A DNA stretch of 64,000 bases. Source: an uncultured Schlesneria sp. Its GTDB lineage: Bacteria; Planctomycetota; Planctomycetia; Planctomycetales; Planctomycetaceae. Below are positions 6,121 to 36,076 of this stretch, piece by piece; the first letter of the stretch is position 1, and every line of letters begins with the position of its first letter. The DNA is taken from NCBI GenBank assembly GCA_903858935.1, contig CAIOKO010000010.1, forward strand, positions 1-64,000, in the 5' to 3' direction. Position numbers and translations under genes: made by a program. Under the pieces are notes generated by a model, which saw only the letters and a program-made list of their open reading frames with translations, was not told the DNA's origin and did no database searches.

Positions 6121-6552
6121 GTTGTATGACGTTCTTATATCCCGAAATGCCTTGAAACCGGATCTGTATCTTATTTGGAACGCGAAGTCAGGATGTTTCG
6201 TTCACCCGGCGAAGATGATTTAACAGAAAGCACTGTTTCATGCGCCGGAAAACTCCAAAATATGACGATTGTGATTGCGGCGGAAGGCTTTGAAATAGTT
6301 TCGCAGGGTTCTGCATGAAATACAAAATGTGACTTCCGTGCCTCAATACCTTCGTTAAGTGGACTGAAATAAATTATGAGTCTCGCAAAAATACAAATAC
6401 TGCACTCGTGACCCAATAACTGATTTCTCTAGCTTTGTTCATCTTTGGCACCGCCAATGATTTACGAAATCCTGAAAAGCAGAAGTCACACGAACGTCTT
6501 ACGACGCTCCATCGATTGATGCAAACCGAGCATGATGAAGTCAAGGTTGGCT
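6121..6552. other. Intergenic gap, no gene seen
   Basis: This stretch separates the start of ackA from the 3' end of the PstS-like gene (both on the minus strand). It should hold the ackA promoter. Short open frames here have no recognisable protein features, no ribosome-binding site and no codon bias, and I see no hairpin or repeat. Confidence 0.5.
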
Positions 6553-7608
6553 TCAAGGAACAGGCTGTTTTGTCGCGTCATCTTCGCGTTGAATTCCGAC
6601 TGATGCCAGAGCTCGGGTCGCGATCACGTCTCCTACGGGAAGGAATCCGCTGCGAACCACGTCGGACTGTCCTTGATTGCTGTATAAATAAAGTAGAAAT
6701 TCCCGGCTCAACGGTTTGAGTTCTGTTCCAGGCGCGTAATTCACGTAAAGAAACAGGAACCTGGTCAATGGGTAGTCGCCAGAATAAGCGTGTTCGGGAA
6801 TCGGAGAGTAGTATTCCGACTTGATGTCTTGGGAAAGTGGCAGCGCCCTTACTTCATCTGCCTTTGAACCCATGCCGCTGTAGCCGATGGCGTATTTATT
6901 GTTCGCCACACCTTGCACAACCGATGAACTTCCGAGCTGCTCCTGAACGTCCTCGCGAAACGCGCCATTGAACAATGCGTGTTCCCTGAAAAAACGATTC
7001 GTACCCGAGGCGGCATTGCGCCCAAAAAGCGTGATCGGCTTGCTGGACCATTCTCCCGTTAATCCCAGATCACCCCATTTGGTAAGCATATTTGGAGCGC
7101 CCCCTTTTAGCGTACGGGAAAATAAGGCATCGACTTGTTGAAGTGTCAAACCCTTGATCGGGTTATCCTCGTGAACATAGACGGTCAACATATCGATGCT
7201 GGTGGGAAGCGCTACTGGCGGGTAGCCGAATTTTTTCTTGAAGTCATCGACTTCCTTGGCTTTCATCGCCCGGCTCATCGCAATGAACTGAGCTTTTCCT
7301 GAGATCAGTGCCGGGGGGCCAAATGATGAGCCCTCGCCTTCAATTCCGATCGTGACGTTGCTGTAAAGTTTTTTGAAACTTTCGGCGAGTATTGTGACTT
7401 CACCAATCATCGTGTCAGAGCCGTTGAACTGGAGGTCGCCAGAGACCCCCTTTACCACTTTGTACTCGGGCAGCTTTGCGTTCGCTTTCGCTGCGGTTAC
7501 GTCTGCCTTTGTCGGAGTTTGAATTGTCTTCTCTTGTGCCTGTAGTCCATTGAACATGACGGGTAAAGCGACAATCGCGAAACCAAGCATTTGCAGCCGA
7601 ACGTTCAT
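6553..7608 (-). CDS. pstS: PstS-like phosphate-binding protein
   Basis: A periplasmic substrate-binding protein of 351 residues with a clear signal peptide (LGFAIVALPVMFNGLQAQ). The phosphate-binding landmarks of the PstS family are present: GSDTM followed by EGEGSSFGPPALISGKAQFIAMSR, and the second-lobe segment FGRNAASGTNRFFRE. AGAGGT precedes the ATG. In a complete system it would hand phosphate to PstCAB, but no permease or ATPase gene is adjacent, so it is either an orphan serving a distant transporter or a stand-alone binding protein. It lies between two OprP-type porins, which would be consistent with a phosphate-uptake role. The gene symbol is by family, not proven orthology. Confidence 0.82.
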   Translation of the reverse strand: MNVRLQMLGFAIVALPVMFNGLQAQEKTIQTPTKADVTAAKANAKLPEYKVVKGVSGDLQFNGSDTMIGEVTILAESFKKLYSNVTIGIEGEGSSFGPPALISGKAQFIAMSRAMKAKEVDDFKKKFGYPPVALPTSIDMLTVYVHEDNPIKGLTLQQVDALFSRTLKGGAPNMLTKWGDLGLTGEWSSKPITLFGRNAASGTNRFFREHALFNGAFREDVQEQLGSSSVVQGVANNKYAIGYSGMGSKADEVRALPLSQDIKSEYYSPIPEHAYSGDYPLTRFLFLYVNYAPGTELKPLSREFLLYLYSNQGQSDVVRSGFLPVGDVIATRALASVGIQREDDATKQPVP

Positions 7609-7944
7609 AGAAACCTCTTTGCACTTCCAAATCAGTCGCTGGACACTGTTTATTGTTTACTGTCCGTTTATGTTTCGTTAGCGATAGTGTGACGAAATTA
7701 AACGGCTGACAAAAAACTCATTGTTTGACTGGCAAGCCGCCGCACGCGGTTCGCTGGGAACTTTGGCGACAGTAACAACTTCAAGTTCCTCAAAATTGCT
7801 GAATCACCTTCATTGGCCTGTTTCTGTTCGCTTCGAAATAGATACGTCAACGCATTAGTAACTGTTGATTGCATAGCGCGGCATGGGTAGCATACCAAGA
7901 CGTTTTTTAACTTTCAGGTTGTCGCGAGATTTTTCGGGAATCAC
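7609..7944. other. Divergent intergenic region
   Basis: Between the divergent PstS-like and carbonic anhydrase genes; both promoters should be here. A pair of adjacent near-identical heptamers (TGTTTAT, TGTTTAC) lies at 7647-7660, just upstream of the PstS-like start. I could not match it to a PhoB box. Otherwise nothing is seen. Confidence 0.4.
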
Positions 7945-8766
7945 ATGAAAACTCGAAATCGATTGTTGTTGGCTTTCTTGATCGGAGTGATCTGCACCTC
8001 GGCAATCTCCGCGCTGGATCAACCGGTAGTTGTTCCCGAGGCGTCTGGTGTCGCTCAATCGAAGACTGACGGTGTTTTGGAGAAGCCCGTCGCAAAACCA
8101 GCAAGCCCTGGCTCCACGTCCGTGAAACCTGTTGTCGCGTCAGACCAACATGGAAACTCGACGAAGCACGCTCAGGATCAACAGGTCATGACACCCGCAG
8201 AAGCGTTACAGAGCCTGAAAGATGGCAATAAGCGTTTCATTACGGACCATCTTGAAAAGGCAGCAGGGAAAGAACGGTTGATTGAATTGGCGAAAGGACA
8301 GAAGCCGATTGCTGCGGTCATTGCCTGTGCCGATTCCCGTGTCTCTCCGGAACTGATCTTCAATAAGGGTTTGGGAGAGTTATTCGTGCTTCGAGTTGCT
8401 GGAAACGTGTCTACGGAGGCATATGCTCTGGCGGGCTCGGCGGAATACGCTGTGGCGCATCTCAATGTTCCATTGGTTGTCGTGATCGGTCACGAAACCT
8501 GCGGGGCGGTCAAAGCCACCTTAAAGGGTGAACCTGAAAAAGGAAACCTCGGGCGACTGCTCAAAGCCGTGCAGGTTGGTAACCACCTTAATCTGGCAGC
8601 TGCGGTCCGTAACAACGTTATTTTTCAAGCCGACCAATTGCTGTTGGAAAGTGAAATGATCCGCGACTTTGTGATCAGTGAACGCATCATTGTCGTACCG
8701 GCGGTTTATTCCCTAAACACGGGCGAGGTCACGTTTATGGATCCCGTCGTGTGGGAGAAAGGTTGA
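7945..8766 (+). CDS. Exported beta-class carbonic anhydrase
   Basis: Catalyses reversible hydration of CO2 to bicarbonate. The 273-residue precursor starts with a signal peptide (LLLAFLIGVICTSAISA), then a low-complexity Pro/Lys/Val linker to about residue 80, then a canonical beta-class domain. The zinc ligands are visible as C128, H183 and C186 with the catalytic dyad D130-R132 (CADSR, GHETCG). The signal peptide places it in the periplasm, unlike the usual cytoplasmic beta enzymes. It stands alone on the plus strand. Confidence 0.9.
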   Translation: MKTRNRLLLAFLIGVICTSAISALDQPVVVPEASGVAQSKTDGVLEKPVAKPASPGSTSVKPVVASDQHGNSTKHAQDQQVMTPAEALQSLKDGNKRFITDHLEKAAGKERLIELAKGQKPIAAVIACADSRVSPELIFNKGLGELFVLRVAGNVSTEAYALAGSAEYAVAHLNVPLVVVIGHETCGAVKATLKGEPEKGNLGRLLKAVQVGNHLNLAAAVRNNVIFQADQLLLESEMIRDFVISERIIVVPAVYSLNTGEVTFMDPVVWEKG

Positions 8767-9287
8767 ACAAGCGGGGAATTGATCGACGATTGCGGCCCGA
8801 TTTGAATCGCAGGATCGCCCGTAATTCCGCCTCTTCAAAAAACTTATCTGGGTGGGGTATCGGGGGTATAATCTTTACCATTGATCTGGATCGAACCTTA
8901 AAGCGGTCTTCAGCAAGCAATGGCTTTCCCCCGCTCTTCCGTCTGTAAACAGTTTAAGCGAGATCCGGCAGAGAGCATGCCGTATCGCTCTGGGTCGGCA
9001 CCAACGGGCTATGTGTCCGTTCACCGTTTCAGAAGTACTTCTCGCGAAGGCTTGAGTTTAACGATTGTAGCGAGCAGGTGTTTAAGGTTATCCGCTACCT
9101 TACATCTGCGAGATCAAGTGCATACCGAGGCTCACGCCCATGTTGCCGATTGTCCGAAGGTCTAATTAAGAACACGGGATGGATCCTGCTTGTAGCGAGC
9201 GACGCGTCATAAAGTGTCGCCCCATAGATTTTAACAGATCGGCAATTGACGCCGGTTTTGATTTTTCATGCGAATGGATGCGCAACT
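8767..9287. other. Intergenic gap before second porin
   Basis: No credible gene. An 11-base word, TTGTAGCGAGC, occurs twice (9065-9075 and 9190-9200) upstream of the porin and could be a regulator site or chance. No terminator with a T-run was found after the carbonic anhydrase gene. Confidence 0.4.
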
Positions 9288-11123
9288 ATGCTAACGCTGC
9301 TTTCGTTGACATCGACGGCCGGTTTCCGTCGTTTTCGTTTGGCACTTGGTCTTTCGAGTTTCGTCGCATGCGCGCTGGGCCTGGTCCAAGGTTCGTCTGT
9401 GATGGCAGACGATCCATTTGAAGAACTTCAGACGCGAATTGCACAACTCGAGCAAGACAACCGTGAATTACGTTCGGCATTGTCAAAACGTCCGGATGAC
9501 TCATTGGTTCCTCTGATTTCAGAGTTGCCTCCTGTGCCAGAAGATTTCGAAGAAGATGCGGAAAAATCCCCTGAAGACCGCAAGATGGAAAACCTGGTTG
9601 ATGGCTTAATCCGTCGTATGAACAAGCAAACGAATGCGGCTGTTGACGCTCAGAATCAGAAAATCTCAGAGCTGGAAAAGAAGCTCAATGGTTTGAATAA
9701 ACCACCAAAACCAAATGGAGGAACCGCGACTTTTGGAAACACCGGCTTAGTCTTTACGTCTAATGACGGAAACTTCAAGACGCACTTCGGCGGTACAGCT
9801 CAGTTAGACTTCGTTGCGCCTCAGTCGGTTGCCTCCAACATCATTACGCCGGGCGGAGCTTACGGTTTCCAGGATGCAACTAACTTCAGACGTTTGCGTA
9901 TGCGTGCTGATGGTACGATGTACGGGACCATCGACTGGGTGTCTGAATTCGACTTTGCAGGATTTATCCAGAACACCGCAAATCCGGCAGTTGGCCTGGC
10001 TGCAAACGGACTTCGCAGTATCGGTACTCTCACCAATGGCCAGCAGGGGGGTAACTCAATCAACGTCATTCAGCCGACGACGGTGTGGATGACATTTAAA
10101 GACATTCCCGTTATCGGAAACCTGCGAGTTGGTAACCAGCAAGACTGGTTCAGTATCGAGCATATTACCAGTGCCCGGTACCTCGACTTTATGGAACGAG
10201 CACCGATCATGGATACCTTCAGTGGTCCGAACAACAACGGTTACACACCTGGTGTATCGATTTTCAATAATACGCCCGACAAGAACGCTGGATTGCAGCT
10301 TGGTGTCTACAAAAATAACGCCTACGATTCAGGCTATACCTTCGATCTTGGGAATGCGTTTACCTACGGTGGCCGAGCAATCTGGACACCTTATTACGAC
10401 GAAGCGTCAGAGGGCCGTTATCTCGTACATACGGCGTTCGGCGCTGAGTACCGGACATACAATACGGATCTGGGAGTTACGCAGAATGGTCAGAATATCC
10501 GACTACGTTCGCGTGGAGACCTCCGGATCGATTCGGCGACGCTGACTCCTAACTTTGCCGACACAGGCAACTTCTTCACCCAGGATCAGACGTTGATTGA
10601 TCCTGAAATTGCTGTTGTCTGGGGACCTTGGACGTTGCAGGCCGAATACACCTCGTCCTGGTTCAATGGAGCCCGAACGACGCAGTTGCCGGGCGGCGTG
10701 ATGCTTCATAACGTTCAAATGAGCGGCGGATATGCCGAGGCATTGTATTTCCTGACGGGTGAAAACAAGACTTACAATCGACAGACCGGATTGTTTGGGC
10801 AGGTCGTTCCGAAAAACAATGTCAACTTCAGCCAGGGGAAATACGGCGCGTGGCAAGTGGGTACGCGATACGACTGGATGGACTTGAATTCGGGTTTAAT
10901 TACTGGTGGTCGTAACCAAAACGGAACAATCGGCTTGAACTGGTTCATCAACCCCAATATTCGATTCCAGTTCAATACTGTGTTCAGCTATATCAATAAC
11001 GCTGTTGAACCGATTATCCCAGGCCCCGTCGGGTCAGTCGCATCGGGGACCTTGCGTGGTTCGAAGTTTGTCGGCGACGGACTGATCCTGACCGTAGGTA
11101 CCCGCATGGATATCAGTTTCTGA
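9288..11123 (+). CDS. OprP/OprO-type outer-membrane porin
   Basis: A second phosphate-selective-porin-like barrel (611 residues from the ATG at 9288; an in-frame TTG at 9246 would add an unlikely leader). A signal peptide ending near GSSVMA is followed by a coiled coil (LQTRIAQLEQDNRELRSAL), an acidic linker, a second short coiled coil (KISELEKKLNGL) and a long barrel domain with many N/G turns, ending in TRMDISF, a terminal phenylalanine typical of outer-membrane proteins. Its N-terminal layout matches the porin at 197-1831, suggesting paralogues. A strong terminator follows it, so it is probably a monocistronic, highly expressed gene. Confidence 0.85.
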   Translation: MLTLLSLTSTAGFRRFRLALGLSSFVACALGLVQGSSVMADDPFEELQTRIAQLEQDNRELRSALSKRPDDSLVPLISELPPVPEDFEEDAEKSPEDRKMENLVDGLIRRMNKQTNAAVDAQNQKISELEKKLNGLNKPPKPNGGTATFGNTGLVFTSNDGNFKTHFGGTAQLDFVAPQSVASNIITPGGAYGFQDATNFRRLRMRADGTMYGTIDWVSEFDFAGFIQNTANPAVGLAANGLRSIGTLTNGQQGGNSINVIQPTTVWMTFKDIPVIGNLRVGNQQDWFSIEHITSARYLDFMERAPIMDTFSGPNNNGYTPGVSIFNNTPDKNAGLQLGVYKNNAYDSGYTFDLGNAFTYGGRAIWTPYYDEASEGRYLVHTAFGAEYRTYNTDLGVTQNGQNIRLRSRGDLRIDSATLTPNFADTGNFFTQDQTLIDPEIAVVWGPWTLQAEYTSSWFNGARTTQLPGGVMLHNVQMSGGYAEALYFLTGENKTYNRQTGLFGQVVPKNNVNFSQGKYGAWQVGTRYDWMDLNSGLITGGRNQNGTIGLNWFINPNIRFQFNTVFSYINNAVEPIIPGPVGSVASGTLRGSKFVGDGLILTVGTRMDISF

Positions 11124-28490: not shown

Positions 28491-29387
28491 TCAAGGTATT
28501 CTACGCTCATCCCAGCGTCGAAAGCCGATTCGCAACAGCCCCGTATAGCTCGCATTGAAAACAAATGAGCTCAATTTGAGATAACGGACGAAACGATTAT
28601 AGACATCGAGATCGACGACTTTCAGTGCCTCGGATTTCCGCGACACCAAAGTCCGATACCAGATTTGACAGGTCCGTGCATAATGTTCGCGGTCGTTGCG
28701 AAGGTTAACAACCTCAAACAATCCATCACTTGCAGCGATGATGTCCGCAAGTGTAGGAAGAACAGATTCCGGAAAGATCACGTCGAAAAAGAATTTCGTA
28801 TCGGGCTGGTTTTTGACGTTTGCGACATCAACATTTCCATACGAGATCGTCTGCAGCGACAATCGACCACCTGGCTTCAACCATCCGTGGCACCGTTCAA
28901 AGAATTCCCGATAAGCCGCAATTCGTTGACTGTCAGGCCATTCCGCCTTGGCAAAATGCTCGAACGCACCGACAGAGATTATTCCGTCGTAAAGATCCGC
29001 CGGTTGATGATCAACCCAACTTTCGATTCGAATCTCGACTCGCGGGTCAGGACGCTGAGCACTCCATTCTGCTTGCGCATTACTGAGCGTCAGTCCGATT
29101 GCCTGTTCAACTTGATGTGTTTCGACGAGGCGGCGGACGAGCGAACCCCATCCGCAGCCGACATCGAGGACACGTTGAGCACCCTTGGCATGAATCTGAT
29201 TGGCGTGAAAATCAATTTTCCGCAGTTGAGCCTGCTCGAGCATCGAGTCAGGCTCGTCGTCGTCCCAAAGTGCACATGAATAACAAAGAGTGGGGTCAAG
29301 CCAGAGATCATAGAATTCGTTCGCAACATCGTAGTGGCGACGAATAGCCTCAGGCGAGGCTCCACGCTGAGTAATTGTCGACGTCAT
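28491..29387 (-). CDS. Cyclopropane-fatty-acid-synthase-type SAM methyltransferase
   Basis: A 298-residue class I methyltransferase of the CFAS/mycolic-acid-cyclopropane-synthase family. It has the family N-terminal signature (HYDVANEFYDLWLDPTLCYSCALW), motif I VLDVGCGWGSL at about 77-87, the QIGLTLS-like segment AIGLTLSNAQ, and a YFFDVIFPES-like segment reading FFFDVIFPES. Such enzymes methylenate or methylate unsaturated acyl chains or acyl carriers. GAGAGGT precedes the ATG, nine bases after the acyl carrier protein stop, so both are one operon and the substrate may be bound to that ACP (inference). Confidence 0.88.
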   Translation of the reverse strand: MTSTITQRGASPEAIRRHYDVANEFYDLWLDPTLCYSCALWDDDEPDSMLEQAQLRKIDFHANQIHAKGAQRVLDVGCGWGSLVRRLVETHQVEQAIGLTLSNAQAEWSAQRPDPRVEIRIESWVDHQPADLYDGIISVGAFEHFAKAEWPDSQRIAAYREFFERCHGWLKPGGRLSLQTISYGNVDVANVKNQPDTKFFFDVIFPESVLPTLADIIAASDGLFEVVNLRNDREHYARTCQIWYRTLVSRKSEALKVVDLDVYNRFVRYLKLSSFVFNASYTGLLRIGFRRWDERRIP

Positions 29388-29396
29388 GTAGACCTC

Positions 29397-29693
29397 TCAA
29401 GCAGCAGCTTTTTGAAAATCGTCTTTCCCGCCAGAAACATCTTTGGGCTCATTCGTCTTTTTCTGAACGATGTCGAGCAGCTCTCCGACATGCACTGCGT
29501 CAGCCAACTCTTCGTGAGAGAGTCGAATCTTGAAGTGACGTTCAAGTTGCATGATGAGGCTGACCATATCGACTGAATCGAGCCCCAGTTGTTCAGCAAG
29601 ATGCTGTTCGTCAGACAAACTTTCGAGCGGTTCGCCCGTTTCTGCTTCGAATAATTCCAGCAACGTCTCACGAATCTGATCGCGTGTAACCAC
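29397..29693 (-). CDS. Acyl carrier protein
   Basis: A 98-residue carrier protein. The phosphopantetheine attachment serine is S40 in LGLDSVDMV, followed by helix II-III sequence (LIMQLERHFKIRLSHEELADAVHVGELLDIV). GTG at 29693 was chosen because GGGAGA lies just upstream and the protein begins at the first ACP helix (TRDQIRETLLELF); an upstream ATG at 29711 would add six residues. A Lys/Gly/Asp tail of about 20 residues follows the domain. It is not next to fabD/fabG/fabF in the housekeeping order, so it is more likely a dedicated carrier for the adjacent methyltransferase and keto-synthases. Confidence 0.87.
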   Translation of the reverse strand: MVTRDQIRETLLELFEAETGEPLESLSDEQHLAEQLGLDSVDMVSLIMQLERHFKIRLSHEELADAVHVGELLDIVQKKTNEPKDVSGGKDDFQKAAA

Positions 29694-30060
29694 GATATCT
29701 CCCGAAATCATCCATGATGGGAGGCTCCCCCTGTTTGTGCCGCGTACGGAGCCGATGCATGCGACAAAACATCGATCCGACAACGGCCGGAAACGGCCCT
29801 GCAGATCGAATGCGTGGGGATCAAATCAACTTTTCGCAGACGCGACAAGATCGATTTTCAGAAAAAGCCGTCCGAGAGGCTACTTTTTTGTCAGAGAGAT
29901 CTAGTGGCAAAACAGGAAGTCGCTAGACTTCGCCCCCGCCATGCGCTAACGACCGAATCATCATGATGATGTGACGAGACCTTTGATCGCGAGCGAAACG
30001 GTAATGGCAGCCGCAGGGGGACGCCATTTTCAGGGTTGATGATGCTCCAAGGAGGGGGCT
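29694..30060. other. Divergent promoter region of the keto-synthase cluster
   Basis: Between the ACP gene (minus) and the DUF6134-like gene (plus). An AATGGC...GCCATT inverted repeat lies at about 30003-30030, upstream of a strong AAGGAGGGGG ribosome-binding site at 30049-30058. No gene is seen. A shared regulatory region for the two arms of the cluster is likely. Confidence 0.45.
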
Positions 30061-30789
30061 ATGCGAAAGTCGTTTTTTTATTTGTCTTTCGTGTTCTATT
30101 GCCTAGCGTGGTTCCCCGGCTTTCAAGTAACGCTGGGAGAAGATCGACCTAAGTCACGCGTGACCACCGCTGGTAACAAAACCGAATCGGTTGAAATCCG
30201 CGACTTTGAAGTTCGCGTCGACAATAAACCTGCGGGAACTCATCGTCTGACGATTAAATGCGAAGGCGACACGAATGAGGTTGCGTTTCAGACCGATGTC
30301 AAATTTGATTTCATCGTCTATGCGTACGTCTTCAAGTTTCGCGGAAAAGAAGTCTGGCGCGATGGACGTCTCGAGCAATCCGAGATTCGCTGCGAGGATG
30401 GTGGCAAGAAAAGAACAATGGCGCTGAAAACGGATGGGACAGTTCAGCAGATTTCATTTAACGGGAAATCAATACCAGCAAACTCCCAATGTGTCATGTC
30501 GACCGCCTATTGGTGCCTCCCTTCCGAAGAGTTACGAGGCAAGCCATTCGCAATTGTCGACGTTGACTCTGGGAACACGCGAAGTGCCAGTTTGAATGTC
30601 GTCGGGCCAACGACAATCACCACCTCGGGGCGATCACTGACCTGTCATCATTTCAAAATTGACGGCCCATCCCCAGCCGAACTTTGGTTTGACGATCGTG
30701 ACCGACTAGTGCGTCAGAAATCAGTTGAACAGGGGCACCAGATGGAACTCCGTCTAAAGGATATTCGTTTTTCGAACGACGACAAATAA
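30061..30789 (+). CDS. Secreted DUF6134-like protein
   Basis: A 242-residue protein with a signal peptide (FFYLSFVFYCLAWFPGFQVTLG) and an all-beta body. The segments FEVRVDNKPAGTHRLTI, FIVYAYVFKFRGKEVWRDGRLE and YWCLPSEEL, and the C-terminal AELWFDDRDRLVRQKSVEQG, resemble the DUF6134 family as I remember it. The alternating strands suggest a lipid- or ligand-binding barrel (inference). A near-consensus AAGGAGGGGG precedes the ATG, so it is well translated. It heads the plus-strand arm followed by two keto-synthase-like genes. The function is unknown. Confidence 0.7.
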   Translation: MRKSFFYLSFVFYCLAWFPGFQVTLGEDRPKSRVTTAGNKTESVEIRDFEVRVDNKPAGTHRLTIKCEGDTNEVAFQTDVKFDFIVYAYVFKFRGKEVWRDGRLEQSEIRCEDGGKKRTMALKTDGTVQQISFNGKSIPANSQCVMSTAYWCLPSEELRGKPFAIVDVDSGNTRSASLNVVGPTTITTSGRSLTCHHFKIDGPSPAELWFDDRDRLVRQKSVEQGHQMELRLKDIRFSNDDK

Positions 30790-30895
30790 TCGAACTCGAA
30801 GTCAGCGTGGTCGTCTTGAAGACGATGTGAATTTGACCTGAATCGTATGGAATCACTTTACAATTTATCTCTCTTTGTCCTGCAAAAGGATTACC

Positions 30896-31756
30896 GTGCC
30901 CACGATGAACACCCCCAACAGAGAAACGGCCACGGAACACGATTCCCTGGAATGTGCGGTTACTTCTTATGCGACAACGCGATTATCATACGATGCGGTT
31001 AATGCACTGAGAAAGCAGTCTGATACGTTACCAGGTGCTCTCGGAAACAGCGTTCTCAGACATTCTGACGAGCAAACGCTCACAGCGTTAGTCGCGGTGA
31101 AGGATGCAATCAGTCAATTCGAGACACCACCCGAAGACTTTCAAAATTGGGGGGTTGTCTTTTCGACGCGATATCTCGGACGAACGGCGTTTGCCCAGGC
31201 ACTTAACAAATTCGCTGTTGACGGGCCATGGAATGTTTCGGTTCAAGTCGTCCCGAATCGTTCACTCCATTCACCAGCGAGCATGCTCGGGCTGGCGCTT
31301 GGTTGTCACGGCCCCTGCGTGGGAGTCGGCGGCGGCCTAGATGGCGAACCCGATGCCTGGCTGACAGCGATTTCTTTGCTGGGTCAACAGTCATTACCAG
31401 GTATTTGGCTTGTTTTTTCTGGCTGGGAACCGGACGAACGCATCGACATCGAGGGAACGCCTTTGACGGACACGAGTTGTACGACCCTGGCGTTAGCGTT
31501 GCAGCCAGCCTCAACGTCTAACCCGACGGCTCGCTTACGCATCGTTTATGATCAGTTTGCCCCTGTCGCCCTTGAAGTTCCGGCCAAAACGACAGCGATG
31601 ACATTATTCGAAAACTTCATCGCGTCAGGTAATGAGCAGCCTCTGACCGCGATGCTGGGAGGAGGTCTTCGAGCGGAAATGAACTGGTCAAACGCCATGA
31701 CATCAACAATCCCATTGTTGCGACCGATCCCGACAAATCTCAAAAAAGCCGCCTGA
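30896..31756 (+). CDS. Truncated, degenerate beta-ketoacyl-synthase-like protein
   Basis: A 286-residue protein resembling only the N-terminal half of a keto-synthase (similar to the ketoacyl-synt_2 type seen in aryl-polyene clusters). VPNRSLHSPASMLGLALGCHGPCVGVGGG occupies the place of the nucleophile region, but no TACxS cysteine motif and no catalytic His pair are visible. It may pair with the following complete synthase like a chain-length factor (inference). AAAGGA lies five bases before the GTG at 30896, chosen over an ATG at 30905. The C-terminal third (ALEVPAKTTAMTLFENF) is not recognised. Confidence 0.68.
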   Translation: MPTMNTPNRETATEHDSLECAVTSYATTRLSYDAVNALRKQSDTLPGALGNSVLRHSDEQTLTALVAVKDAISQFETPPEDFQNWGVVFSTRYLGRTAFAQALNKFAVDGPWNVSVQVVPNRSLHSPASMLGLALGCHGPCVGVGGGLDGEPDAWLTAISLLGQQSLPGIWLVFSGWEPDERIDIEGTPLTDTSCTTLALALQPASTSNPTARLRIVYDQFAPVALEVPAKTTAMTLFENFIASGNEQPLTAMLGGGLRAEMNWSNAMTSTIPLLRPIPTNLKKAA

Positions 31757-31923
31757 GTAAGACGACCAGAAACACCCTGTTTTGCACGATCCTGATCTTA
31801 TCAAACGAGTGTTCAACACGGTTTCGGACCTGAACACGACGACCCGAGAAACATAAAAATCAGCTTTCAGTGATGCCTCAATCTTGAATGCATGAAACAA
31901 AGAACAGCGAAAGAGGAACTTGG

Positions 31924-33147
31924 ATGAAAAAACAAGATACAGTTTGCATTACCGGAGTTGGGCTGACGTCTTCGATTGGTCATGGGTATGAGGAATTTGC
32001 CTCAAACCTGCTTTCCAGTGTATCAGGAATCGAGCGTGTTTCGGCCTTCGAGGTCAACGATCATCCAAGTCAGATCGCCAGCTTGATTGGACAAATCCCT
32101 TGTCCAGAAGGATTTGACGAAAACGAATTTCGCTCTCGGTTACGAATCGAGCAATGTGGTATCTGGTGTGCCGAGTCGGCGCTCAGGGATGCCGGGTTGC
32201 AGAAGCGGCCTGAAGGATTACGTATCGGCCTGGTTCTTGGGCTGGGTGCGGAATGGATGCAGAGTTGGGAAATGGACTATCGCCGCGGTGGTCGTCGAGC
32301 CTTTGATCCGACGGAAGAACCAGCGGGACTGACGACAAAGGTGCATCGATTGCTGGATCTTCGTGGTCCGCAATTGACGGTCTCTGCCGCTTGCGCCAGC
32401 GGTAATTGGGCGTTATCACAAGGACGTCGATGGCTGGAGCTGGGTTGGGTAGACATCTGCCTTGCCGGAGCGTGCGATATTGGCGTGACACCCCTTTCAT
32501 TGGCGGGATTCGGCAATCTTCGAGCGCTCTCTCGAAAGAACCAGGCGCCTCACGCAGCGCTTCGTCCGTTCGACAAAGATCGAGATGGCATGGTCCTGGG
32601 TGAAGGAGGGGCGATATTCGTCCTCGAAAAAACGTCCAAGGCAATCGAACGTGGCGCACGGCGTTATGCGAATGTTGCGGGTTTCGGTGCCACAAGCGAC
32701 GCTCATCACATGGTCATTCCGTGTCCCGAACCACAACAGGGCATCGCGGCAATGAAACAGGCACTTAACGATGCTCATGTTGAACCAAATGACATCGACT
32801 ATATCAATGCACATGCCACGGGAACTCCCGTAGGAGACGTCTGTGAAGCAAAAATTTTACAATCGGTACTCGGAGAATCGGTGAAGGACGTTCCGATCAG
32901 TTCGACCAAAGCATTGACCGGCCATCTCTTGAGTGCTGCTGCAGCAATTGAAGCCGTTGCGTGCCTGGTCGCTCTGGAGAGACAGGTGACGCCTCCTACG
33001 GTTAATCTTGAAGATCCCGATCCTGATTGTGCCATGTTGAATCACGTCAGGAACGAACCTCAACCCCGGCCGGTCGACGTTACGGTCTCAAATTCATTCG
33101 GCTTCGGCGGAAATAACACTTGTCTGGTTTTGAAGAAGGCCGCGTAA
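31924..33147 (+). CDS. Beta-ketoacyl-ACP synthase (FabF/KAS II-like)
   Basis: Catalyses decarboxylative chain extension on acyl carrier protein. The 407-residue protein has a complete active site: Cys157 in VSAACASG, the first His in NAHATGTPVGD, Lys in SSTKALTGH and the second His in TGHLLSAA, and it ends with the usual SNSFGFGGNN glycine loop. AGAGGA lies six bases before the ATG at 31924; an upstream ATG at 31888 is less well placed. Because housekeeping fab partners are absent and a degenerate KS, an ACP and a CFAS-type methyltransferase are near, it probably serves a specialised pathway. Confidence 0.92.
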   Translation: MKKQDTVCITGVGLTSSIGHGYEEFASNLLSSVSGIERVSAFEVNDHPSQIASLIGQIPCPEGFDENEFRSRLRIEQCGIWCAESALRDAGLQKRPEGLRIGLVLGLGAEWMQSWEMDYRRGGRRAFDPTEEPAGLTTKVHRLLDLRGPQLTVSAACASGNWALSQGRRWLELGWVDICLAGACDIGVTPLSLAGFGNLRALSRKNQAPHAALRPFDKDRDGMVLGEGGAIFVLEKTSKAIERGARRYANVAGFGATSDAHHMVIPCPEPQQGIAAMKQALNDAHVEPNDIDYINAHATGTPVGDVCEAKILQSVLGESVKDVPISSTKALTGHLLSAAAAIEAVACLVALERQVTPPTVNLEDPDPDCAMLNHVRNEPQPRPVDVTVSNSFGFGGNNTCLVLKKAA

Positions 33148-33284: not shown

Positions 33285-36014
33285 TTATTGTGCCTCAGCT
33301 GGCACATCCAACAAGTAAACTTTGCCGTCGTTAGCCATCAATGCAATCTGTTTGCTGCTTGGCGAAAAAGTTCCCGAGTAAAGAATTGCGGGGAGCTTCT
33401 GGCTGAAGAGCGGCTTCTCTTGATTTGGGTCCCAGATCGATACGTTTCCTGCATATCCAATCGAGAGAATTCGGTTGCCGGTCGCCGAGAATTCCACTTT
33501 GTAAATGTCGTCTTTGTGCCCGGACAATGACTTGAGCGGATCGAGGTTGTCAATGTTCCACAGGTAGATCTTGCGATCGAGTCCTGCGGCGGCGATTTGC
33601 TGACCGTTTGGACTGACCGCGACAGAGTAGATTGCATCTGTCGGTCCGTTGTATTGACGGACCTGAGTCCCATCATCCTGCTTGTACGCTCGAACGGTCT
33701 TGTCTCCGCCGGCGGTAATGACGGTCAAGCCATCCGGCGTAAAGGTCAGAGAATAAATAGCGCCGCCCTGTGCCGCGAACGAACGGACATTCTGATTCTT
33801 TTCGTAGTCCCAGATCTTGACCGTTTTGTCGTTTGATGCAGATGCGATCAAAGGCAATGCCGGGTGAAAACCAACTCCATAGACTTGTGACTGGTGGCCC
33901 GCCAACGACGCCGTGGCCTGAGGCGACGCAATGGCCCACGCCCTGACCGAACCATCGGCGGCAGCACTGATCGCCAGCTTGCTATCTGGTGCAAAGCTCA
34001 GGCAGGTAATCGAGGCAGGATGCCCGTCAGTCACTTGAGCCGGCTCTTGAGAAGGAGGGGCGGGCGGTATCGGATTCGGTGGTGTTGGATCAAATGCTCG
34101 AATCAAATGATCGCTCCCCGCGACGATCAATTTCTTTTGATCCGCAGAATAGGCGATATGGACGATCTCGGTCGTCGTTTGAATGTCGAACTGAGGCTTC
34201 GACGGATCATTAATATTCCAGATCTTCAATTTCTTATCGCTGCCACCACTGGCCAGTTGCTGCTGATTGGGATTGACTGCGATTGATCGGACAGGACCAA
34301 CATGACCTTTAAAGTCTCGAATCAGATTGCCGCTTCCGACATCCCAATACTTCACGATTCCGTCGTCACCGACAGTAAAATGATGAGCGGCGTTCGGATG
34401 GACGGCGAGTCCATTCACTCGTTTTTCATCCGCAATATGCAGATGCTGAATCGCGTGCATGTCCCAGTATACGACCTTGTCTGCTCCCGCATACACGAAA
34501 TTCTGATTGTCGTTCGACCAGCCGATTCCGTGGATCGGACCACCACCCGCTGCAACGACGTGTTGCGTCTGACGCCCGAGTGGCAAGTTCCAGCCTCGCA
34601 CAGTCCCGTCAGCACTCGATGAAAGGAGTTTCAAATTGTCGCGGCAGTATTCCAGCGAAGTAATTTTTTCCGTATGACCCGAATACGTTGCGAACGCAGC
34701 GCCATCGCCAAGATTCCAGACACGAATCGTCTTATCGTCGCCACCTGCGGCAATTCGTTGATTATCCCATGAGATCGCCACGGCTCGGACGACATCAACG
34801 GCATCAATTTCTCGAATTTGAGCCCCATCGGCAGGATTCCAGACTCGAACTTTTTTATCTGCCCCTCCCGAGACCAGATGCTGTTGCGATGTTGCATAGG
34901 CCAGGGCAAACGTTCCACCCTCGTGTCCAGCGAGAGTTCGAACTTCCGTTCCTTCATTTGCTTTCCAGATCTTGATTGCACCGCTGGCGTCGGCGACAGC
35001 AACTTCTTGATTGTTCGGATGGATCGCGACGGCCGTGATCGCAGCCGCCTGTTCAGGGTAGGCTTTGATCAGCATCCCGTTATTCACGTCGAACAGCCGC
35101 GCAATCTTGTCTTCGCACCCGGTAACGATGCGGCCACCGTCAAACTGGAATGAAAGTGATGTCACCGCGCCGTTGTGTCCTTCGAGATTTCTTAATGGCT
35201 TCTGGTCGCCGTTATTCCACAGCCGACAGGTCTTATCTGCCGACCCCGTGGCAACCATTGAGTTATTTGGATTCACTCGCAATGTCAGGATGGGTTGTTC
35301 ATGACCTGCAGCCGTCCTGGTCGCTTGACCCAGGTTCGGCCAGCGTTTGACCAGCCCGTCTGCACCTGAAGTCATGATCCAGCTGTTGTTGGGCGCGTAG
35401 GCCAGACCCGTTATTTCCGAAGTGTGTGCACCGAATACTCCTTGCGGAGTCCCGTCAACCGGGTTGAACAATCGAACAAACCCGGCGGTGTCAACAATAC
35501 CAACCTGGACTTTGTCGGGTCGAAATGCAACTCGAGAAACAGGGTATGGCAATGGACCGATTTCCTTCACCAATTGACGGTCAGCAGCGTTCCAGATGCG
35601 CAGCATCTTGTCGCCACCACCCGTCAGCCATTGTGTTCCATCGGAATTTAAGGCAACTGATGCAGAACCCTGATGAGGCTGCATCGTTGCAGTCGGCTTC
35701 GAGATGGGGACATCCCAAAGCTTTATCGTATTGTCGAGAGAACCACTGGCGAGGCGATTTCCGTCTTTTGTGATCGCCACGCAAAGCACTAACCCCGTGT
35801 GTCCGTTCAGCGTTCTAAGCGTCGTTCCGGAATTCAAATCCCAAATCCGCAAGGTCTTGTCAAAGCTCGCTGTGACCAGTTTTGTACCGTCCGGCGTATA
35901 GACTGCCGCGTAGGCAGGATCGGTGTGCCCGATCAACACTTTTGGCTCAACAGCACCAAGTCGGGACGTCATCGCGGCTAACAAGGCCAACAACAAAGCA
36001 GTGCGATCGAGCAT
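33285..36014 (-). CDS. Exported multi-WD40-repeat protein
   Basis: A 909-residue protein with a signal peptide (LDRTALLLALLAAMTSRLGA) and a body made almost entirely of WD40 repeats. About 18-20 copies of the GHxxxVxxxxFxPDGxxLxSxGxDKTxRxWD pattern are visible, enough for two or three propellers. A Pro-rich linker (PTPPNPIPPAPPSQEP) near residue 640 separates blocks. It probably scaffolds protein contacts in the periplasm. The ATG at 36014 was chosen because the hydrophobic leader directly follows and GGGA precedes it. No kinase domain, unlike many WD40 proteins of planctomycetes. Confidence 0.88.
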   Translation of the reverse strand: MLDRTALLLALLAAMTSRLGAVEPKVLIGHTDPAYAAVYTPDGTKLVTASFDKTLRIWDLNSGTTLRTLNGHTGLVLCVAITKDGNRLASGSLDNTIKLWDVPISKPTATMQPHQGSASVALNSDGTQWLTGGGDKMLRIWNAADRQLVKEIGPLPYPVSRVAFRPDKVQVGIVDTAGFVRLFNPVDGTPQGVFGAHTSEITGLAYAPNNSWIMTSGADGLVKRWPNLGQATRTAAGHEQPILTLRVNPNNSMVATGSADKTCRLWNNGDQKPLRNLEGHNGAVTSLSFQFDGGRIVTGCEDKIARLFDVNNGMLIKAYPEQAAAITAVAIHPNNQEVAVADASGAIKIWKANEGTEVRTLAGHEGGTFALAYATSQQHLVSGGADKKVRVWNPADGAQIREIDAVDVVRAVAISWDNQRIAAGGDDKTIRVWNLGDGAAFATYSGHTEKITSLEYCRDNLKLLSSSADGTVRGWNLPLGRQTQHVVAAGGGPIHGIGWSNDNQNFVYAGADKVVYWDMHAIQHLHIADEKRVNGLAVHPNAAHHFTVGDDGIVKYWDVGSGNLIRDFKGHVGPVRSIAVNPNQQQLASGGSDKKLKIWNINDPSKPQFDIQTTTEIVHIAYSADQKKLIVAGSDHLIRAFDPTPPNPIPPAPPSQEPAQVTDGHPASITCLSFAPDSKLAISAAADGSVRAWAIASPQATASLAGHQSQVYGVGFHPALPLIASASNDKTVKIWDYEKNQNVRSFAAQGGAIYSLTFTPDGLTVITAGGDKTVRAYKQDDGTQVRQYNGPTDAIYSVAVSPNGQQIAAAGLDRKIYLWNIDNLDPLKSLSGHKDDIYKVEFSATGNRILSIGYAGNVSIWDPNQEKPLFSQKLPAILYSGTFSPSSKQIALMANDGKVYLLDVPAEAQ

Positions 36015-36076
36015 ATTCGTATCCCGTAAAGACATCAAAATCGCAAATCATTTTACTCATCTGAACGAAACGAAAA

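Follow-up and report, generated by a model that had tools for sequence, protein, structure and literature searches.

Two kinds of described system come closest to the locus treated here. In the ApeO-ApeC aryl-polyene synthase, the chain-length factor (CLF) keeps one thiolase-fold domain only (PMC8358021; PDB 6QSP), and this approximately half-size CLF is found together with a complete ketosynthase (KS), dedicated acyl carrier proteins (ACPs) and a LolA-family protein. In the actinobacterial type II polyketide synthases (actinorhodin, 1TQY; ishigamide, 6KXD-F), a KS is combined with a Cys-less KS homologue and an ACP. Planctomycetes are listed among the phyla with KS-CLF pairs in PMC10132072, so some such pairs may already be catalogued, and Rattray et al. 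(PMC2649909) describe Cys-less FabF paralogues in Rhodopirellula and Kuenenia. The window analysed here, 64,000 nucleotides of contig CAIOKO010000010.1 from an uncultured Schlesneria sp., carries five genes: a complete KS, a half-size KS homologue lacking the catalytic Cys, an ACP, a DUF6134 protein predicted to be secreted, and a methyltransferase. With a probability of roughly 0.6, we read the locus as a dedicated type II KS-CLF/ACP unit making an unusual acyl chain of the envelope, with a LolA-like periplasmic carrier and, in relatives, release of the chain as an aminoketone by an alpha-oxoamine synthase (AOS). Its features are as follows.

28491-29387, minus strand: CMAS-type methyltransferase (Pfam CMAS, 1.1e-61)
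29397-29711, minus strand: ACP with the LGLDSV phosphopantetheine motif (Pfam PP-binding, 2.1e-12)
29712-30060, between the divergent genes: intergenic region of 349 bp, from the gene layout the presumed site of both promoters
30061-30789, plus strand: DUF6134 protein, 242 aa (Pfam PF19630, 1.1e-24)
30896-31756, plus strand: half-size, Cys-less, CLF-like KS homologue (family alignment, AlphaFold2 model, Foldseek)
31924-33147, plus strand: KS with the complete Cys/His/His/Lys set (Pfam ketoacyl-synt N and C)

All five genes are present where an earlier note on this sequence had placed them, and the families hold in Pfam for four (CMAS, PP-binding, DUF6134 and ketoacyl-synthase). The open reading frame (ORF) of the short KS homologue spans 30875-31756 from TTG 30875, and relatives point to a start at GTG 30896; the KS ORF spans 31888-33147, and relatives point to a start at ATG 31924.

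The ketosynthase and its half-size partner

The KS matches both ketoacyl-synthase domains in Pfam (N 5.6e-35, C 1e-35), and C157, H297, K329 and H334 are kept in 32/32 aligned relatives. The earlier note had named a grouping with housekeeping FabF, along with complementation of a fabF mutant, as the outcome that would speak against its proposal; a tree of 53 rows instead unites the 41 KSs of the cluster in a single clade (support 100/99) that excludes both E. coli FabF and the window genome's own FabF (C191_414). The placement of EcApeO in this tree is a long-branch join and is given no weight. The KS also scores under the NCBIfam FabF cut-offs, at 376.8 of 493.75 and 377.4 of 387 bits. Because the KS occupies its own clade, falls below the FabF cut-off and lies in a conserved neighbourhood, its assignment to a dedicated acyl-building unit, rather than to housekeeping FabF, is supported at the level of sequence.

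The short protein, 286 aa in length, alone finds no Pfam match up to E 1 and no useful match in NCBIfam or PADLOC. Within its family, 9/36 members match PF00109 (best 2.1e-5) and 1/36 matches Ketoacyl-synt_2, at 0.057. The family profile reaches the genome's own FabF at E 1.4e-12 (8-sequence search) and, among solved structures, FabF chains at E 8e-4 and weaker. These profile matches show homology between the family and the first half of FabF-type synthases. The catalytic Cys is retained in 0/36 and 0/44 aligned rows of two alignments, and R39, R96, H125, G139 and G143 are invariant in 36/36 rows. The protein has lost the catalytic Cys plus the second half of the KS fold. The earlier description of a shortened, degenerate keto-synthase is right about the shortening; the protein is not merely degenerate, being a conserved partner that accompanies every KS match in the class genomes sampled (below), and it is best read as a CLF for the adjoining complete KS.

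The predicted structure of the CLF (AlphaFold2; pLDDT 81.3, pTM 0.82) has ApeC as its first Foldseek match (6qsp_B, E 9.0e-8). VIA-align superposes the model on the same chain with Z 17.0 and rmsd 3.8 over 211 of 238 residues, and gives Z 17.6 to 1TQY_B and 17.5 to 6KXD_B. Unlike the modelled fold, the sequence carries no clear link to the aryl-polyene protein: the family profile meets E. coli ApeC at only E 0.033. Because the CLF is nearer in sequence to FabF than to ApeC, we read its half size as probably an independent or very old reduction. At 358-402 aa, the listed actinobacterial CLFs are longer than the 286-aa protein of the window, where no cyclase or aromatase is seen.

A stripped aryl-polyene-like synthase would share more than the ApeC match. 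The combination of KS, half-size CLF, ACP and LolA-like protein is also the plan of aryl-polyene clusters, as seen in the annotation of two comparison loci (L187, L188) and in PMC8358021. The dehydratase, reductase, thioesterase, acyltransferase, glycosyltransferase and MMPL genes of those two loci are, however, all absent at the window locus, and together with the weak profile score this makes such an identity very improbable. Among the 11 flanking genes scanned there is likewise no sign of the dehydratase, reductase, thioesterase, transporter and tailoring genes that aryl-polyene clusters dedicate to their product, and the relatives add an AOS. Ladderane synthesis was also considered, and no desaturase or radical-SAM gene occurs among the scanned flanks. 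The claim that no characterised system has this gene set holds within the open-licence PMC literature, while the plan of KS, half-size CLF, ACP and LolA-like protein does have an analogue in ApeO-ApeC. We describe the locus as a probable type II KS-CLF unit in undescribed gene company, its CLF having probably reached half size independently.

Two Schlesneria genomes hold a further pair of neighbouring full-size KSs. In the window genome (G000; L189, C191:12000-30000) the two measure 414 and 449 aa, with ORFs at 6889-8130 and 8211-9557; in G007 (L193, C20) they measure 436 and 442 aa, with ORFs at 6359-7666 and 7796-9121. The first KS of each pair groups with FabF.

Conservation of the locus in Planctomycetia

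Eleven of the 15 Schlesneria genomes sampled (G000-G014) carry the short KS-like gene. At these loci KS, CLF and ACP are present in 11/11, DUF6134 in nine and the methyltransferase in six. The full set recurs as neighbours in six Schlesneria genomes, that of the window included, so the five-gene arrangement is not due to chance. In G010, G011 and G012, three of the four genomes without the cluster, ArgS is found and none of the other nine window proteins occurs in the stretch examined.

Class-wide, 297 genomes were searched, with E<=1e-90 for the KS and E<=1e-30 for the CLF profile. The KS search returns 65 matches in 64 genomes, and the CLF is found in 67, a count that omits 15 of 82 genomes with weak matches (E 1e-8 to 1e-11) inside ordinary full-size KSs. 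A CLF lies within 6 kb of the KS, on the same strand, in 65/65 cases, so the genes are conserved as neighbours, contrary to the second outcome that had been set against the proposal. A CLF without a KS match occurs in only 3 genomes, and in one of them (G240) the contig ends beyond the CLF. Forty neighbourhoods (L053-L092), selected by hand and not at random from 66 genomes in which the KS or the CLF was matched, show the CLF and KS genes overlapping by exactly 4 nt at 9 loci and an ACP within 6 kb of the CLF at 26; each listed ACP has the LDS motif. The core is therefore CLF and KS, kept together in many genera, with an ACP nearby at many loci and DUF6134 less constant. The five genes that had been taken for one unit do recur together in Schlesneria, but they are not the unit, since DUF6134 varies and the methyltransferase is confined to a subset of loci.

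The less constant genes are still associated with the core. CLF and DUF6134 co-occur in 35 of the 297 genomes (Fisher p 3e-16), CLF and AOS in 38 (p 6e-13), and AOS and DUF6134 in 31 (p 5e-12), all uncorrected for kinship; in many genomes the set is incomplete. In a phylum-wide draw of 246 genomes, the CLF profile matched only the window's own genome at E<=1e-20. A contig scan with two short peptide patterns, which is not exhaustive, gave 49 loci, all with planctomycete names except one titled only 'bacterium'.

These counts bear on the view that the locus holds redundant fatty-acid genes, namely an extra FabF next to a second FabF in decay, and that the methyltransferase and the secreted protein are unrelated genes placed there by chance. 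The KS is indeed still FabF-like, its best matches in the PDB being FabF and its FabF-model score that given above, and the methyltransferase is not constant. However, the KS has a clade of its own, ACP and DUF6134 recur, and the CLF, unlike a decaying copy, stands beside the KS in every case and keeps its invariant motif in every aligned row. Redundancy is thus quite improbable, and the dedicated KS-CLF unit is preferred.

The scanned flanks of the cluster are housekeeping or unrelated genes; nine of the 11 scanned encode PMSR, signal peptidase II, NfeD, ArgS, DNA polymerase III delta, DUF1015, peptidase S9, YcsF and a carboxyltransferase. No gene for fatty-acid synthesis, a thioesterase or an ACP synthase is among these 11, the rest of the window lying outside the scan; within that range, the earlier statement that FabD, FabG, FabZ, thioesterase and ACP synthase are missing is borne out.

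Several neighbourhoods show further genes. In the window, a 917-aa WD40-repeat protein (33285-36038; 17 WD40 stretches) separates the KS from the gene for DNA polymerase III delta; it is absent in G002 (L057), where the delta gene abuts the KS. At the ACP-CLF-KS loci of family f15 (L083-L091), a DUF4254 protein follows the KS, and the neighbours also include a weakly VanZ-like protein and an NAD-dependent epimerase. One ACP-CLF-KS locus (L129) comes from a contig that bears the name Candidatus Kuenenia stuttgartiensis, which may reflect binning and not a true anammox origin.

Companion enzymes and the DUF6134 protein

In other Planctomycetia, outside the window, a pyridoxal phosphate (PLP) enzyme of the AOS family adjoins the ACP or the CLF. 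It is found in 66/297 class genomes, one of 67 having been dropped (G112, 33% identity). A CLF stands within 6 kb of it in 20 genomes, and DUF6134 does so in 14. In seven relatives AOS, ACP, DUF6134, CLF and KS share one locus (L076, L077, L103, L125, L149, L150 and L152); at L103 the window's order of ACP, DUF6134, CLF and KS is kept, with the AOS in the place of the methyltransferase.

The AOS shares its PLP fold type with serine palmitoyltransferase (SPT), BioF and KBL, and the active-site segments align. A tree of 38 rows, two of them SPT, unites the 26 AOSs of the cluster with support 100/100 on a long branch (2.9), apart from SPT, BioF, KBL and ThAOS. A sphingolipid-type pathway, in which an SPT-like AOS fed by the KS-CLF and ACP would make long-chain bases and Schlesneria would have a reduced version, gains from the position of the AOS beside the ACP, from a short-chain dehydrogenase/reductase (SDR) next to the KS at 4/40 loci, and from the PLP-lysine segment SLSKGFSCMGGF, which resembles the TFSKSLASLGGF of SPT. 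A Black Sea study also assigns Spt-like proteins to 138 Planctomycetota metagenome-assembled genomes (PMC11334938). The separate clade outside SPT argues against such a pathway, as do the NCBIfam SPT scores, all of them far short of the cut-off (for the AOS at L073, 228 of 640 and 226 of 500 bits); none of the listed NCBIfam cut-offs is reached. Moreover, no AOS of the clade occurs in Schlesneria G000-G010, the ten CLF-bearing genomes tested (G000-G009) included, where only matches of about 28-33% identity are found. A sphingolipid-type pathway is hence unlikely. For the two Schlesneria genomes included in the tree, these matches group with BioF and KBL, and a role for an AOS in the window was dropped.

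Transport genes also accompany the cluster enzymes in relatives. At three f2 loci (L104, L116 and L121; Pfam run on L104), the genes after the KS encode an SDR, a MacB/FtsX-type permease, an ABC ATPase and an HlyD-type adaptor. An SMR-family transporter adjoins the AOS at five loci and is two genes off at a sixth (L163-L168, in genomes without CLF), and in four genomes (f2 loci L154-L157) the AOS adjoins a small membrane protein with a weak likeness to EamA (27.0 bits against a cut-off of 28.2). These genes point to a putatively exported product in those lineages; no such transport gene is present at the window locus.

The methyltransferase is a short CMAS form without the N-terminal domain, a form it has in common with mycobacterial UmaA, MmaA4, PcaA and CmaA2; UmaA, MmaA4 and their kin are its nearest solved structures, and it reaches 166.4 of 390 bits with the NCBIfam mycolic model. 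Cyclopropane synthases of the CMAS/CFA type have an active-site set of Cys, Glu, His and Tyr. The methyltransferase keeps Cys38, Glu143 and Tyr236, common to the mycobacterial enzymes, and lacks the full set: the His of UmaA, PcaA and CmaA2 is Gln179 in 6/6 orthologues, as it is Gln in MmaA4. Cyclopropanation is therefore not a safe guess, and methyl branching or methyl-plus-hydroxyl addition is possible. With a place at only 6/11 Schlesneria loci, the methyltransferase is an accessory gene; among 101 family genomes sampled, the other 98 give no match to it at E<=1e-40. A PADLOC mad2 match (1.5e-18) falls on a stretch common to methyltransferases in general and was set aside.

Its CMAS family and accessory distribution would also suit an ordinary membrane cyclopropane synthase that acts on phospholipids and is unrelated to the ACP unit. 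The gene nevertheless has the orientation of the ACP gene and is only 9 nt away from it, occupies the same place in all six loci, and encodes the short mycobacterial form with the Gln substitution. An action on phospholipids is thus somewhat unlikely, and modification of the ACP-bound chain is preferred.

The DUF6134 protein begins with a hydrophobic stretch, by eye a predicted Sec signal peptide, and has a weak Pfam DUF3108 match (0.0065). The AlphaFold2 model, from 11 sequences, has pLDDT 79.2 and pTM 0.73. Its best structural match is 6ntr, a DUF1849 protein of Brucella (Z 15.1, rmsd 3.1, 188 aligned), followed by LmcA at Z 10.3 and LolA proteins at Z about 8, with sequence identity of 6-13% to these structures. 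The DUF1849 protein goes by the name EipB, and the model places DUF6134 in an EipB/LolA-like half-barrel fold, alike in form to DUF1849/EipB and to LolA, LolB and LprG. A periplasmic role in binding or carrying lipid may be proposed from this fold. Of the two functions earlier suggested for the secreted protein, carrier or effector, it is the carrier that finds agreement, at the level of the fold only and with a signal peptide judged by eye. No paper using the term DUF6134 was found in the open-licence PMC literature. DUF6134 genes also occur in genomes without CLF or AOS (L171-L178), where the surroundings differ and no common neighbour is seen.

Proposed pathway and its meaning

From this gene anatomy and its conservation, a substrate, a product and an export route can be proposed. 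The KS and the half-size CLF would form a heterodimer that extends a chain on the dedicated ACP, with the CLF shaping the pocket and setting the chain length by analogy with KS-CLF pairs. Because the corresponding genes are absent at the locus, malonyl units, keto-reduction, dehydration and ACP activation would be drawn from housekeeping fatty-acid synthesis. In some Schlesneria species, the CMAS-family methyltransferase beside the ACP gene may modify the chain, and a non-cyclopropane outcome of this methylation is possible because the His-to-Gln change is common to the MmaA4 sequence. The secreted DUF6134 protein would bind lipid or carry it across the periplasm, as its modelled fold suggests. 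In other Planctomycetia, the separate-clade AOS most likely releases the acyl chain as a long-chain aminoketone. The minimal pathway for an unusual acyl chain envisaged in the earlier note survives as a dedicated acyl-building unit, on the strength of the KS clade and the conserved neighbourhood; the AOS companion in other genera had gone unseen.

Several observations weigh against this reading. The ACP is not near the CLF at 14/40 loci. DUF6134 is missing from 32/67 CLF genomes, while 14 genomes that lack a CLF have it, so its work is not confined to this cluster; the AOS is missing in 29/67 CLF genomes and present in 28 without CLF. Incomplete draft assemblies and the chosen E-value limits contribute to these counts. 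In the CLF, the profile lies nearer to ordinary FabF than to ApeC, and the VIA-align score for ApeC is tied with those of whole KS, CLF and FabF/FabB chains. With Schlesneria lacking the cluster AOS, the window's own releasing step is unaccounted for.

More tentatively, and with the smaller share of our confidence, the parts may be assembled into an undescribed envelope-lipid class of Planctomycetia. A chain of set length would be built on the ACP by the KS and an independently shrunken CLF, released by the AOS as an aminoketone, reduced by the adjoining SDR where present, exported by adjoining small flippase-like or FtsX/ABC/HlyD systems and carried by DUF6134. The Schlesneria branch would have lost the AOS and, in some species, acquired the C-methyltransferase, and would make a related lipid free of the amine.

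In conclusion, if the reading of a dedicated KS-CLF/ACP unit is true, it would describe a lipid or polyketide pathway widespread in Planctomycetia, given the 67/297 sampled class genomes with CLF, and a second, sequence-distinct case of a CLF cut to half a ketosynthase. Since Planctomycetota contain an oxoamine synthase clade other than SPT, the numbers of Spt-like proteins given for the phylum in PMC11334938 may deserve re-examination. The pathway would also assign DUF6134 a function and open a way to study the unusual envelope of planctomycetes.

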